A stretch of DNA of 26,602 nt from a virus: positions 1 through 26,602 of IMG/VR virus record IMGVR_UViG_3300005600_000713, one strand, 5' to 3'. The translations under genes were made by a program, and so were the position numbers. Below, piece after piece: positions 4,037 through 15,370 of this stretch; position 1 is the stretch's first letter, and each line of letters begins with the position of its first letter. A model generated the notes under the pieces. The model saw only the letters and a list, made by a program, of their open reading frames with translations, was not told where the DNA came from and did not search any database.

Positions 4037-5797
4037 ATGCCATTGACCATGATCGTTACAGATGCAGGCCGCGCCGCCATCGTGAATGCAGAAAACAGCG
4101 GCACAGACCCGGTCACCATCACCGAATGCGGTCTTTCTGGCTCCGTCATAACGGCTGACGCAACAATGACAGCGCTGGCTGGTGAGTTCAAGCGGATTGC
4201 CACTCTTTCCGGCGATGTGGTCGATGATGACACGATCCACATGATCGTGCGCGATGAAGGCATGGACGCCTATACGGTTCGTGCATGGGCGCTCTATCTG
4301 GCAGACGGCACGCTTTTTGGAATTTTTGGCCAGAGTGACCCGCTGATCGAGAAAACATCCTCATCGGCCATGTTGCTGGCTATTGATGTGCGCTTTGCCG
4401 ACATCAATGCCGCCTCGCTGATATTCGGTGACACGAACTTTCTCAACCCGCCCGCGACGACTGAAGCTCTGGGCGTGGTCGAACTGGCGACCGAGACCGA
4501 GGCGATTGCCGGAGCCGACGCGCAGCGCGCTGTCGTTCCTGCCGCGATGCAGGCAGCGGTGAACAACTGGCTCGATGCACGTTTTGGCGCGGGCAATAGC
4601 GGGATTTGGCATCCCGGCAATGATGGCGCGGGCAGCGCGATGGATGCGGACACAGTCGACGGGCTGCATGCGAATGCTTTTCTGCTTGCCGCCAGCTTCA
4701 CCGCCTCAGCCATCAAGGCCATGTTGCTTACGGTGGACGGCGCGGGCAGCGGCGTAGATGCTGATACGGTCGATGGTGTTCATGCGGCGAGCTTTCTCAG
4801 AGCCGACGCAGAAGACACCGCCTCTGAGCTGATCACTTTCAGCAAGGGCCTGGTCGCCACTGGCGGAATACATTCTACCGATGGCCTGATCACCAGTATT
4901 TCAGGCGGCCTTTCTGCACTATCTACATCAGAAAATGTCGATCATATCTGGCATGACGACGGCGCAAATACATGGCATTTCTGCTCAGATGCGCCGCACA
5001 AAACCGGGGGAAATTCAAAGCTGGCGACAGGCGGCGTGACGGTGAATGGCTTTAGTGTATGGCATCCCGGCAATGACGGCGCGGGCAGCACACTGGACAG
5101 CGACTTGCTCGACGGTCAGCATGGCAGCTATTATCTCAGCCTGTCAAACAGCACAGGGACTTTACCCGATGCCCGATTGAGCGGAAGCTATAGCGGGATC
5201 ACTCAGATCAGCCTGTCGAGGATACGCCTTTCCTCAACATTAGACGCAAGCCCAACAAGCACAGGCCATGCTTTCCAGATCGGTTCCGATAGTGGCGAAA
5301 ACCTCATTATCGATTCCAATGAAATTATGGCGCGCGATAATGGTGCAGGAACCTCACTCTATATTCAGTATGGAGCCAATTGCACGACAGGCGATTTTAC
5401 AAAGAACGGACTGCCTTATTGGCATCCCGGCAATGATGGTGCGGGCAGCGCGATGGATGCGGACACAGTCGACGGGCTGCATGCCAGCGCTTTTGCTAAG
5501 CTGGCCGATTATGTCTTTAACAAGGGCGGCTCTGGCCGTCATATATGGCCGGGCGGCTTCACTGTCATGTGGGGCTATGCCACCGTGAATGGCAATGCAT
5601 ACACAACGGTAGATACGCCTTACCATTTCGGAACAGCAATGTATGGCGCATTGGTGAGCGGTGGTCGCTTGGGCGAGAATGACGCTAAAGATAATGACCC
5701 TACATTTTCCAATGTGGTCGATACCAACAGCTTTCGCGTGTGGAACAGCCGCGATGAACAGACACAGATATTCTTTCTGGCCATTGGAGATAGTTGA
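4037..5797 (+). CDS. H: Tail fibre protein (P2 gene H position)
   Basis: A 586-aa host-range protein preceded by GAGGAT at a good distance. Residues about 1-150 form the conserved baseplate-attachment domain (starts MPLTMIVTDAGRAAIVNAEN). The shaft contains repeated units around WHPGNDGAGS...DADTVDGLHA at about residues 190, 342 and 461, with a shorter DGAGSGVDADTVDGVHA at about 234. The last ~100 residues (IWPGGFTVMWGYATVNG through IFFLAIGDS) resemble the Gp53-like C-terminal receptor-binding fold of phage fibres. Two shaft units are 65/66 identical at DNA level, so in-frame recombination could shorten the fibre. No dedicated fibre-assembly chaperone is recognisable unless it is the 66-aa gene that follows. 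Confidence 0.9.
   Translation: MPLTMIVTDAGRAAIVNAENSGTDPVTITECGLSGSVITADATMTALAGEFKRIATLSGDVVDDDTIHMIVRDEGMDAYTVRAWALYLADGTLFGIFGQSDPLIEKTSSSAMLLAIDVRFADINAASLIFGDTNFLNPPATTEALGVVELATETEAIAGADAQRAVVPAAMQAAVNNWLDARFGAGNSGIWHPGNDGAGSAMDADTVDGLHANAFLLAASFTASAIKAMLLTVDGAGSGVDADTVDGVHAASFLRADAEDTASELITFSKGLVATGGIHSTDGLITSISGGLSALSTSENVDHIWHDDGANTWHFCSDAPHKTGGNSKLATGGVTVNGFSVWHPGNDGAGSTLDSDLLDGQHGSYYLSLSNSTGTLPDARLSGSYSGITQISLSRIRLSSTLDASPTSTGHAFQIGSDSGENLIIDSNEIMARDNGAGTSLYIQYGANCTTGDFTKNGLPYWHPGNDGAGSAMDADTVDGLHASAFAKLADYVFNKGGSGRHIWPGGFTVMWGYATVNGNAYTTVDTPYHFGTAMYGALVSGGRLGENDAKDNDPTFSNVVDTNSFRVWNSRDEQTQIFFLAIGDS
4606..4671 (+). repeat. Tail-fibre shaft repeat, copy 1
   Basis: A 66-bp segment encoding the WHPGNDGAGSAMDADTVDG unit, identical to 5419-5484 except for one silent GGC/GGT difference. 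The first 30 bases also recur near 5060-5089. The two full copies lie 813 nt (271 codons) apart in the same frame. Confidence 0.9.
5419..5484 (+). repeat. Tail-fibre shaft repeat, copy 2
   Basis: Second copy of the 66-bp repeat at 4606-4671, in direct orientation and in frame. Such near-identity at DNA level, beyond what protein conservation demands, suggests recent duplication or gene conversion. Confidence 0.9.
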
Positions 5798-12818: not shown

Positions 12819-12866
12819 TTGTATGTACGATTTAACTTGTATTGCATCACTGAATCGTGCATACAA
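12819..12866. promoter_or_regulatory. Inverted-repeat operator upstream of brnT
   Basis: TTGTATGTACGA (12819-12830) faces TCGTGCATACAA (12855-12866), complementary at 11 of 12 positions with a 24-nt gap. A third half-site-like TTGTATTGCATC (12838-12849) lies between them in direct orientation to the first. BrnA antitoxins are known to repress their own operon, so this is the likely BrnA or BrnTA operator. A -35-like TTATTG (12816-12821) and a weak -10-like TGTATT (12839-12844), 17 nt apart, would put the promoter inside it. Confidence 0.65.
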
Positions 12867-12871
12867 TCTGC

Positions 12872-13120
12872 ATGGATATTGAGTTTGATCCCAAGAAAAA
12901 TGCGCTGAATATCGAAAAGCACGGTATCTCTCTGGCACGCGCGGTCGAGCTTGAAGACGCCATTTATATTGAAGACGAGCGCTATGATGAACCGCGCTTC
13001 CGTATATACGGCCTGATTGACGGCCTGCCCCATTGCGCGGCTGTCACGATCCGTAATGGCAAGGTGCGGGTCATCAATCTGCGCAGAGCACATAGAAAGG
13101 AGTATAAGCGACATGTCTGA
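12872..13120 (+). CDS. brnT: BrnT-family toxin (ribonuclease-like)
   Basis: An 82-aa toxin of the type II BrnT family (RelE-like fold, cleaves RNA). The family pattern is clear: MDIEFDPKKNALNIEKHGISLARAVELE, then YIEDERYDEPRFRIYGLIDG, then VTIRNGKVRVINLRRAHRKEYKR, matching the usual F-x-W/F-D-P-x-K-x-x-x-N-x-x-K-H-G-I and R-x-I-x-x-R-x-A-x-R-x-E motifs. The ATG at 12872 is preferred over the GTG at 12857, which lies inside the inverted repeat. It overlaps brnA by eight bases, toxin first, the normal order for this family. Expected to be bound and neutralised by BrnA. Confidence 0.9.
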   Translation: MDIEFDPKKNALNIEKHGISLARAVELEDAIYIEDERYDEPRFRIYGLIDGLPHCAAVTIRNGKVRVINLRRAHRKEYKRHV

Positions 13121-13367
13121 CAAACCCGTTATATTTGACGATGACAACCCGGAATGGACCGAAGAGGATTTTGCGCGCGCCAAGCCGGTTTCCGAGCATC
13201 CCCTGCTGGCGAAAGCCTTCCCCCGCTCACGAGGGCCACAAAAGCAGCCGACCAAAGAACGGATCACGATCCGTCTAGATGCGGAGCTGGTCGAAACCCT
13301 GCGCGCCACCGGCAAGGGCTGGCAGGGCCGCGTAAATGCTATATTGCGGCGGGAAATGCTGGGCTAA
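13113..13367 (+). CDS. brnA: BrnA-family antitoxin
   Basis: An 84-aa partner of BrnT. It starts at the ATG at 13113 with AAAGGAG upstream. The N-terminal half is acidic (DDDNPEWTEEDFARAKP) and wraps the toxin in known BrnTA structures; the C-terminal KERITIRLDAELVETLRATGKGWQGRVNAILRREM is a ribbon-helix-helix DNA-binding domain. Both functional halves are intact. It probably represses the operon through the inverted repeat at 12819-12866. Confidence 0.9.
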   Translation: MSDKPVIFDDDNPEWTEEDFARAKPVSEHPLLAKAFPRSRGPQKQPTKERITIRLDAELVETLRATGKGWQGRVNAILRREMLG

Positions 13368-13379
13368 GTGGAGGCGATT

Positions 13380-13712
13380 ATGCAGAAGAGCGAAGCAGAT
13401 ATAATAAGAGAGCTATGCGATCCGGCAAATAATGGCGCTGGCGGCATCGTTGATGGTTCCTATAGCGTGCTATGCGAAGGATATATCGAGCATAGCACAG
13501 GCCATAGTGGATTGGACAAACGCATGCTGATTGACGCCATCAAGGGCAGCTCGCCCAAGGTGGAACTGATTGGCAATTTTGAGCAGCGCGGTCTTGGTAC
13601 GTTCAATGGCTCGCATTGTGAATGGAATTGGCAGGATGCCAGCCTCAAAGAGCTGGATGAATGGGAACTGCGCGGCATTTATTCGATATTACGGGATGAT
13701 GGCTGGCGTTAA
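13380..13712 (+). CDS. Unknown protein downstream of brnTA, 110 aa
   Basis: Starts at the ATG at 13380 with GGAGG 6 nt upstream, 12 nt after brnA, so it is probably in the same transcript. The protein is acidic and soluble, with no membrane segment. It contains GGIVDGSYSVLCEGYIEHSTGHSG, a KVELIGNFEQRGLG stretch and a C-terminal ELDEWELRGIYSILRDDGW. I recognise no family. Its place in an accessory locus between late and lysogeny genes, where temperate phages keep morons, makes a host-benefit or superinfection role possible, but this is position-based only. Its stop lies 2 nt from the end of the convergent gene. Confidence 0.75.
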   Translation: MQKSEADIIRELCDPANNGAGGIVDGSYSVLCEGYIEHSTGHSGLDKRMLIDAIKGSSPKVELIGNFEQRGLGTFNGSHCEWNWQDASLKELDEWELRGIYSILRDDGWR

Positions 13713-13714
13713 AT

Positions 13715-14281
13715 TCACGCTACAACAGTCCAATTACTGATGCGCTCCTTGCGAAAGGTGCGTTCAGCCTGCTTTGCGATATCGAAGCCGACGATCTTGT
13801 AGCCCTTATCCTCCCAATTCGATATTTCTCGCTTAGTCGCGGTGCCATAGGCATCCACATAATCGAACCGGGCGCGCGGGCCGTCAGGAATGAATTCCAA
13901 CCCCTCCTCATAATGGCCCGCCTTCTCATCCAATTCGCGGTTCATCGCCCATTCTAACCGCCAGCGCGTGGCCTCCAATGCTTCTTCCGCTTCACTCAAT
14001 TTCATGTCGTGAAGATAGCGCGCGTCTTCGCCTGTCGGCCTGTCTGCGCGCATGATAGAGAGCATATCTCTGATGTAATAATGCTCCGATCTCACCGTTG
14101 CACGATAGGATTCAAGAGATATTTCTCCATCACGATAGCGGCGGAATTCCTTTTCGAGACCTTCCTCCAATTCGCGCAAATCGATCTTCTTGGCGCCATC
14201 AGAGAGGATGGCTCTCACTAGCACAAAGCCGACAAGGAGCAGAGCCGCCGCGATGACCAAAATAACCAGCATGGCTCTCAC
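13715..14281 (-). CDS. Membrane-anchored protein with WYL-like C-terminal domain, 188 aa
   Basis: One N-terminal membrane helix (residues 4-24, MLVILVIAAALLLVGFVLV), then a charged helical stalk (about 35-125), then a compact C-terminal domain (about 137-185). The domain contains ARFDYVDAYGTATKREI, GYKIVGFD and ERTFRKERI. That order, an aromatic-Y-x-D-x-x-G-x-x-x-x-R strand followed by R-T-F-R-x-x-R-I, looks like a small WYL-type ligand-sensing barrel; this is by eye and not certain. Its start overlaps the CI stop (ATGA), so it is co-expressed with the repressor in the lysogen. That suggests a lysogeny role such as superinfection exclusion or signal input. No TM-WYL phage protein of this layout is known to me. 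Confidence 0.75.
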   Translation of the reverse strand: MRAMLVILVIAAALLLVGFVLVRAILSDGAKKIDLRELEEGLEKEFRRYRDGEISLESYRATVRSEHYYIRDMLSIMRADRPTGEDARYLHDMKLSEAEEALEATRWRLEWAMNRELDEKAGHYEEGLEFIPDGPRARFDYVDAYGTATKREISNWEDKGYKIVGFDIAKQAERTFRKERISNWTVVA

Positions 14282-14940
14282 ATCTTCCGAACGATTCCTA
14301 CAACCCTGCCGAGAATGAACAATTCTCCATCTTTGGCTTCCTCTGGCGGAGCGACGTCTTTGTTATCCGATAAAATTTTTATGCCATCTTTTGTCGGCCT
14401 CAATCGTTTGACCTTTCCAGCTCCGTAATGTGCAACAGCCCAAATCTTATCTGATATGCGAAGATGGCGCTCCGATGTATCGATCAGCAACAGGTCGCTG
14501 TCCTTGATCGTCGGCTCCATGCTGTCGCCTATGCCTTGTGCGAAATAGAGAGATTCAGGCGATGCACGGGTATATTGGCGTAGCCAGTCGCGCGAGAAAT
14601 GGCGCACCACAGTGGTGACCGGCACTTCCAGCTCTGTTGCGCCCATACCAAACTTCAGGTCAATCTCCTGCACCGGCACAAGGTCGAGCTGCTCTGCTAC
14701 GCTATCAAGCGATGGTAGCGGCACATAATCAGCATCCGGGTCATCGGTGCCGCCAGACAGGTACTCAGGCGTCGTTTTTAATTCACGCGCAAGAGCATGA
14801 AGATATTTCGAACCCTGTGCGCCTGCTCTAATCAAATGATTGATACTAGGCTGTGTAATACCGACCCGGCGCGCCAACTCTGCTTGAGACGGAATGCCCA
14901 CCACCGTCATTCTTTCAAGAATTCGCGCGCCAAAATCCAT
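14278..14940 (-). CDS. CI-like repressor (HTH plus S24 peptidase-like domain)
   Basis: A 220-aa phage repressor. An N-terminal HTH_3 motif (MDFGARILERM, SQAELARRVGITQPSINHLIRAG) is followed by a linker and an S24/LexA-like domain with GDSMEPTI (S140) and VKRL (K178) as the Ser-Lys pair. No Ala-Gly or Cys-Gly cleavage pair is visible in the linker (about 62-110); the equivalent place reads LKFGMGATE. The ATG at 14940 is chosen because the HTH fold begins there; the frame stays open upstream only because it crosses the 12-nt operator repeats. No Shine-Dalgarno is seen, and a TATAAG box lies 10 nt before the ATG, so the mRNA may be nearly leaderless. Confidence 0.9.
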   Translation of the reverse strand: MDFGARILERMTVVGIPSQAELARRVGITQPSINHLIRAGAQGSKYLHALARELKTTPEYLSGGTDDPDADYVPLPSLDSVAEQLDLVPVQEIDLKFGMGATELEVPVTTVVRHFSRDWLRQYTRASPESLYFAQGIGDSMEPTIKDSDLLLIDTSERHLRISDKIWAVAHYGAGKVKRLRPTKDGIKILSDNKDVAPPEEAKDGELFILGRVVGIVRKM

Positions 14941-14950
14941 AGAGTCTCTG

Positions 14951-14956
14951 CTTATA
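14951..14956 (-). promoter_or_regulatory. Candidate -10 box of the CI promoter
   Basis: TATAAG on the minus strand, 10 nt before the CI ATG. No good -35 lies 16-18 nt upstream (AACTTT is the nearest), as is common for repressor-maintenance promoters that need activation. The transcript would start within a few bases of the ATG. Confidence 0.4.
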
Positions 14957-14990
14957 GAATTGGCTATTGGCCGAAAGTTAGATTTATCTA

Positions 14991-15018
14991 TTGACCGTTC
15001 TATAGATGTGTCTATAGA
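14991..15018 (+). promoter_or_regulatory. Candidate early promoter (cro / rightward operon)
   Basis: TTGACC (14991-14996) and TATAGA (15013-15018) are separated by 16 nt and are embedded in the repeat array, so bound repressor would block polymerase. Transcription would start at about 15025, next to the ATG at 15026, and no Shine-Dalgarno precedes that ATG. The cro mRNA may therefore be leaderless. Confidence 0.55.
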
Positions 15019-15025
15019 TGCTTCT

Positions 15026-15370
15026 ATGAACAACACGCTCACCCCATATGAAGCCTTGATTGAGGCTGAAAAAATCGCCGGTGGACAGTCTGCGTTAGCC
15101 CGCATTTGTGACATCACTCAGCCCACGATTTGGAAAATGATCCATTCTAGTAAAAGGCTAGGTGCCCAATATGTCTTGAAGGTGGAGGCCGCGACCGGCG
15201 TGTCGCGTCACCTGCTTCGCCCTGATATTTATCCACGCACTCTTGCTCCTGTGCCGGTTTCTGAAACCGCCGACCAGACCCCTCTCTGCAACCCGATAGT
15301 GCCGGGCCGCGATTATCCGCGAAAGGATAATCCACGCGGGCTTTTGGACAGAAAGGGAGAGGCTGCATGA
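15026..15370 (+). CDS. Cro / YdaS-like transcriptional regulator
   Basis: A 114-aa DNA-binding protein, first gene of the rightward early operon and divergent from CI. Residues 8-70 form a YdaS/Cro-type HTH: YEALIEAEKIAGGQSALARI, then DITQPTIWKMIHSSKRLGAQYVLKVEAATG and the usual RHLLRPDIYP ending. It is presumed to oppose CI at the shared operator array. The C-terminal 45 residues are Pro-rich and unstructured. Within that part the DNA has an 8-bp hairpin (15311-15332). The ATG at 15026 lies in the last operator repeat; it overlaps the next gene by ATGA. Confidence 0.87.
   Translation: MNNTLTPYEALIEAEKIAGGQSALARICDITQPTIWKMIHSSKRLGAQYVLKVEAATGVSRHLLRPDIYPRTLAPVPVSETADQTPLCNPIVPGRDYPRKDNPRGLLDRKGEAA
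15311..15332 (+). repeat. 8-bp inverted repeat in the cro 3' end
   Basis: GATTATCC and GGATAATC flank a GCGAAA loop. It lies in coding sequence of the weakly constrained C-terminus of the Cro-like protein, about 40 nt before its stop. It may act as an RNA hairpin (the GCGAAA loop is tetraloop-like) or as a protein-binding site; no T tract follows. Confidence 0.4.

Follow-up and report, generated by a model that had tools for sequence, protein, structure and literature searches.

The gene at 13715–14281 (minus strand) of the window, the whole 26,602-nt stretch of viral DNA, encodes a protein that joins a compact WYL domain to a predicted membrane anchor (TM-WYL) and lies directly behind the CI repressor gene of a P2-like phage. 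From its domain, predicted topology, repressor linkage and optional presence, all examined computationally, the best overall explanation is that TM-WYL is optional cargo expressed in the lysogen, a Rex-like exclusion protein that would act at the inner membrane as a sensor of phage nucleic acid; we assign this reading a probability of about 0.5. WYL domains have mainly been described as sensory parts of cytosolic transcription factors.

The TM-WYL gene overlaps the repressor gene

The phage in the window is P2-like, its tail genes matching P2-type tail sheath and baseplate genes. Its S24-type CI repressor, encoded at 14278–14940 (minus strand), has 220 aa when counted from the likely ATG, and the mechanical open reading frame (ORF) extends to 15117; it matched Peptidase_S24 in Pfam (1.1e-13) and a repressor family in PHROG (2.4e-40). 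A YdaS-family, Cro-like regulator (15026–15370, plus strand; PF15943, 1.1e-14) runs divergently from it, and the 85 nt separating the likely starts of the two genes (14941–15025) form a divergent control region with operator-like TCTATAGA palindromes. The TM-WYL gene, supported by homologues and an AlphaFold2 model, encodes 188 aa from a GTG start, with an alternative ATG at 14272, three codons further in. The stop codon of cI and this GTG share 4 nt (GTGA; cI ends at 14278), and the two genes therefore overlap in the manner of translationally coupled genes, which supports the proposal of the first-pass annotation that the membrane protein is co-translated with CI. A search of the junction for promoter or terminator consensus sequences found none, and with no promoter-like or terminator-like site in between, co-expression of the two genes is likely. 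Judging from the start/stop overlap, TM-WYL is very probably expressed together with CI in the lysogen.

Behind cI the window holds this single gene and then a convergent one, so that the slot faces a convergent gene rather than an integrase. The convergent gene is a 114-aa ORF (13368–13712, plus strand) that ends 2 nt from the TM-WYL gene and for which Pfam, PHROGs and NCBIfam gave no match. It lies directly behind brnA of a BrnT/BrnA toxin–antitoxin pair (12857–13364, plus strand; Pfam 7.5e-17 and 4.5e-23), which is located in the interval from gpD, a tail gene, to the TM-WYL gene, on the strand opposite to the latter.

Searches with the single protein returned no match in phages or genome contigs, and in viral contigs nothing beyond the identical locus (L001, an identical copy of the ORF); more distant relatives were reached through domain alignments. 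A chance or non-coding ORF was ruled out by this homology, as dozens of further viral contigs show the same combination of domain, membrane anchor and adjacent repressor.

The C-terminal domain has a WYL fold

Residues 136–187 (13721–13876, minus strand) form a five-stranded Sm/SH3-like barrel that, by Pfam, a PDB profile, structure models and Foldseek, is almost certainly a compact WYL domain. On its own the window protein matched Pfam WYL (PF13280) at residues 136–186 with E=0.04 and 14.4 bits, under the 21.8-bit cut-off, and it has no literal W-Y-L residues. These features, together with Tudor-type barrels that appear further down the Foldseek lists, would suit another small SH3/Tudor-like barrel with an accidental likeness to WYL. 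Against this stand relatives of the window protein that exceed the Pfam cut-off (L033, the best, at 3.7e-7; L026 at 3.7e-6), the conservation of the WYL arginines and the first rank of WYL proteins by both profile and fold. When PDB sequences were searched with a profile built from 46 sequences, the only matches at E≤0.014 were PafBC (2e-7), the AAA ATPase 8BNV (4e-4), which we take to be a WYL-containing helicase of the Pif1 type, PafB and PafC; weaker matches (E≥0.03) were unrelated. In the AlphaFold2 model of the isolated domain (pLDDT 94.6) there are five strands, and its best 14 Foldseek matches were all WYL structures (PafBC, BrxR, CapW and DriD; TM 0.57–0.78), with E-values that are modest for so short a domain (best 6e-3) but a consistent ranking. 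Foldseek with the full-length model agreed. A Tudor/SH3 fold was rejected on this ranking, which largely refutes the accidental-likeness explanation and leaves it very improbable. The comparison with WYL folds that had been proposed as a check thus returned a fold that is not unrelated, its top matches being PafBC, BrxR, CapW and DriD, and the WYL-like assignment is upheld by Pfam relatives, PDB profile and Foldseek alike.

A predicted membrane helix and an acidic stalk replace the DNA-binding domain

The protein has one strong hydrophobic segment (residues 4–22, mean hydropathy 3.29), predicted by hydropathy, the charge rule and a model helix to be a transmembrane helix with N-out/C-in orientation (14216–14272, minus strand). 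It is followed by an acidic helical stalk (residues 27–132; 13886–14203, minus strand) with a net charge of −9. The full-length AlphaFold2 model (pLDDT 85) comprises an N-terminal helix at 2–29, stalk helices at 35–50, 56–79 and 85–120, and strands at 136–142, 148–159, 162–167, 172–177 and 181–187; the FDYVDAYG and RTFRKERI motifs occupy residues 139–146 and 174–181. Hydropathy, model and motif positions accordingly bear out the layout described earlier, that is, one transmembrane helix, a charged stalk and a C-terminal domain with both motifs.

In 44 of 48 sequences, more lysine and arginine residues follow the last hydrophobic segment than precede the first one (means of 3.5 and 0.3), a simple rule rather than a trained predictor, and this excess predicts an N-out/C-in topology with a cytosolic WYL domain. 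The protein thus very likely sits in the inner membrane and keeps its WYL domain on the cytosolic side. The helix is unlikely to be a signal peptide for secretion, with no clear cleavage motif seen by eye and the heavier positive charge after it. Pfam found no helix–turn–helix (HTH) match in the window protein, and the membrane helix and stalk occupy the place of the N-terminal winged HTH of WYL transcription regulators. The window protein belongs with WYL proteins in general and not with the WYL transcription factors.

At 41 distinct loci in viral contigs, one protein combines a WYL domain with hydrophobic segments, whose number by hydropathy is mostly one to three. Among 13 representatives the WYL domains were detectably similar in 78 of 78 pairs and the N-terminal parts in 6 of 78 (E-values relative to this tiny set). 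By sequence comparison, the WYL domain of the TM-WYL family is conserved and its membrane part is not. The first-pass annotation had called a membrane-tethered WYL protein unusual; this needs correcting, given that the architecture recurs in P2-like phages. The main texts of the open-access literature yielded no account of a membrane-anchored WYL protein, nor of a repressor-linked slot with such contents.

TM-WYL genes accompany diverse repressors

A co-directional repressor homologue lies upstream at 38 of the 41 loci, within 120 nt at 36 of them, in searches whose seeds were drawn from repressor neighbourhoods; independently, Pfam detected HTH or CI-type repressor domains in all ten upstream genes tested. 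The repressors vary in type (S24 CI, CI with Phage_CI_C, short HTH proteins) and differ in their C-terminal halves, which makes direct contact between TM-WYL and the repressor unlikely; some share HTH similarity, and the associations cannot all be counted as independent. In a Yersinia P2-like phage isolate, cI, TM-WYL and int are consecutive. Related WYL proteins fused to BRCT are often found in the same repressor-linked place, and membrane-anchored WYL proteins also occur in bacterial genomes (L068–L070, L002). Complete E. coli genomes contained no DNA-level match to two TM-WYL members from 186-like prophages.

The searches also turned up WYL proteins of other kinds. In records named Marinobacter and Ferrimonas (L073, 5761–6336; L074, 5902–6336), a WYL protein has a C-terminal (tail) hydrophobic segment, and its gene adjoins, by sequence, Entner–Doudoroff-type and gap genes. 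A P2-like phage (NC_049342.1; L009, 1486–1968) encodes a 161-aa WYL–BRCT protein annotated 'DNA ligase', a name that is probably wrong, as the protein consists only of WYL and BRCT-like parts. In Stenotrophomonas phages of the Autographiviridae (L006, 2492–2701; L011, 1489–1698), genes next to primase genes encode WYL proteins of about 69 aa that stand alone. Standalone WYL proteins thus occur in virulent phages too, where lysogen exclusion cannot be their role.

The slot behind the repressor probably holds variable cargo

Close relatives of the window CI (66–70% identity) carry other genes in the same slot. Directly behind cI, a WYL protein with TerB is encoded in L127 (4847–5584), L129 and L130 (both 4837–5571), with TerB and WYL matches just under the Pfam cut-offs, and a DUF6161 protein is encoded in L128. 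In Mae-JY29, whose CI is 33% identical to that of the window, the slot holds an unrelated membrane protein, which was rejected as a TM-WYL relative since its hydrophobic segment is accompanied by no Pfam match, WYL included. This 'Microcystis phage' (PP438421.1; L004, L005) has P2-like tail genes along with its S24 repressor related to that of the window, and its named cyanobacterial host may be doubtful.

Among 67 relatives of a 186-like CI, the integrase gene directly follows cI in 47, a TM-WYL gene occupies that position in 7, and 11 have other genes there; among 80 relatives of the xre-type repressor, the slot encodes 52 other proteins with a hydrophobic segment, some of which may be signal peptides, 18 further proteins, 5 TM-WYL proteins and 2 WYL proteins without a transmembrane segment (near-identical contigs are included in both counts). 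A zinc-ribbon-like protein beginning MALKPCKSCKH..CPSCGV and continuing into a hydrophobic segment recurs in the slot behind the xre-type repressor in many prophages (L206–L209, L216, L219, L221–L226, L228, L231 and others). The slot thus behaves like a variable cargo site that, on these comparisons, favours membrane or exported proteins in some groups.

With the slot empty or otherwise filled beside homologous repressors, the repressor does not need the TM-WYL gene, which is probably repressor-linked cargo and not part of the switch. This bears on the suggestion that the protein conveys an induction signal, in which a membrane WYL domain would sense damage-derived single-stranded DNA (ssDNA) or nucleotides and tune the CI switch through CI, its operators or RecA. 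Translational coupling with cI and the work of the ssDNA-sensing relatives PafBC and DriD in DNA-damage responses speak for such a role, but homologous CI proteins function with WYL–TerB, DUF6161 or nothing in the slot, and the WYL domain would need to act from the membrane. The induction-signal proposal is weakened by this variability of the slot and now seems improbable; the other suggestion made at the outset, superinfection exclusion, fits better as a putative role.

A candidate ligand site in the WYL domain

The RTFRKER motif (residues 174–180; 13742–13762, minus strand) contains three arginines, R174, R177 and R180, that lie opposite PafB R208, R211 and R214 in an HMMER alignment; R151 and K170 lie opposite PafB R181 and R204. 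Binding of ssDNA by PafB is abolished by R181A, R211A/R214A, R181A/R204A/R208A and Y196A (PMC11804915). The window protein has the basic residues that line the WYL ligand groove (R151, R174, R177 and R180), and these are kept in 43, 42, 44 and 46 of 46 sequences, respectively. PafB Y196 is opposite window K162, a position that is Tyr in 32 of 46 sequences; D167 stands where Cys is usual, and the eponymous W-Y-L stretch reads Y161-K162-I163. In WYL domains at large, the Cys is frequent but not constant and the W-Y-L residues show no strong conservation (PMC4012209), so neither defines the domain; given D167 and K162, the ligand of the window protein may differ. From the aligned arginines, nucleic acid is a plausible ligand of the window domain, at roughly even odds.

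The DNA-damage regulators PafB/PafC and DriD share the small barrel with the window protein, whose four arginines correspond in the alignment to PafB residues implicated in ssDNA binding. Unlike them, the window protein is phage-encoded and membrane-anchored, lacks both the winged HTH and the C-terminal WCX extension, and has changed Tyr and Cys positions. BrxR and CapW, WYL regulators of defence systems, share the domain fold and the context of phage conflict, but they are cytosolic transcription factors, whereas the window protein has no DNA-binding HTH.

TM-WYL as a proposed Rex-like exclusion protein

The genes of lambda RexAB and of a RexAB-type system of a P. putida prophage are encoded behind CI-like genes (PMC12894663), as is TM-WYL in the window, and these systems combine a nucleic-acid-binding part with a membrane part. 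RexAB consists of two proteins, whereas the window has one gene whose only Pfam match is WYL, and the likeness to RexAB is one of proposed function. We give an anti-phage role for TM-WYL about an even chance. We infer expression with CI, a ligand, an effect and a benefit, which would fit together as follows. TM-WYL would be made whenever CI is made, by virtue of the start/stop overlap, and would reside in the inner membrane with its WYL domain facing the cytosol. There the domain would bind single-stranded nucleic acid or a nucleotide-like signal arising when another phage infects; ligand binding would alter a membrane-anchored assembly, and infection would be blocked through disturbance of the membrane or of DNA entry. 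TM-WYL would thereby be a one-polypeptide counterpart of lambda RexA, the DNA-binding sensor, and RexB, the membrane effector. Counting against exclusion are the acidic stalk and the absence of the Cys and Tyr features from the window protein; in PADLOC its nearest matches are WYL models and not an established exclusion system.

Lysogenic conversion without defence would account for much the same data: a membrane protein altering host physiology or the envelope, with the WYL domain sensing a host nucleotide or stress signal. It would suit the diverse membrane or exported proteins in the slot of xre-type relatives and the membrane-anchored WYL proteins of bacterial genomes (L068–L070, L002), and WYL–TerB might serve a general stress function there. 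Both WYL domains (PMC4012209) and the slot (PMC9122126) are, however, known from defence, and with the data otherwise fitting equally we regard conversion as rather unlikely.

Published comparisons place the exclusion reading in a wider setting. WYL fusions to BRCT and TerB have been described (PMC4012209); their WYL domain is homologous to that of the window protein and both fusions occur in the same repressor-linked slot, whereas the WYL partner in the window protein is a membrane anchor with a stalk, an arrangement not listed in the main text of that paper. The same paper places WYL domains in defence contexts, and Ter genes (TerB) have been proposed to act against superinfecting phages (PMC7824862). 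The cI–int slot of K139/PhiO18P-like prophages, a defence hotspot (PMC9122126), likewise holds variable genes directly behind cI of P2-related phages; the text on it names RM, Septu, helicase+DUF2290 and PARIS but not WYL, and the window slot faces a convergent gene rather than an integrase. Tentatively, and with some doubt, P2-like phages may hold a repressor-linked slot for a family of exclusion devices made of one protein, each combining a shared WYL sensor of phage nucleic acid with an interchangeable partner such as a membrane anchor, BRCT or TerB; the membrane form would fuse RexA-like sensing to RexB-like action.

A recurrent WYL protein that is tethered to the membrane and made alongside the P2-like prophage repressor would broaden the known roles of WYL domains. 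The TM-WYL family would point to a large, hitherto unexplored group of probable exclusion genes, and it offers a direct test system, with the same sensor, swapped partner domains and clear arginines to mutate.
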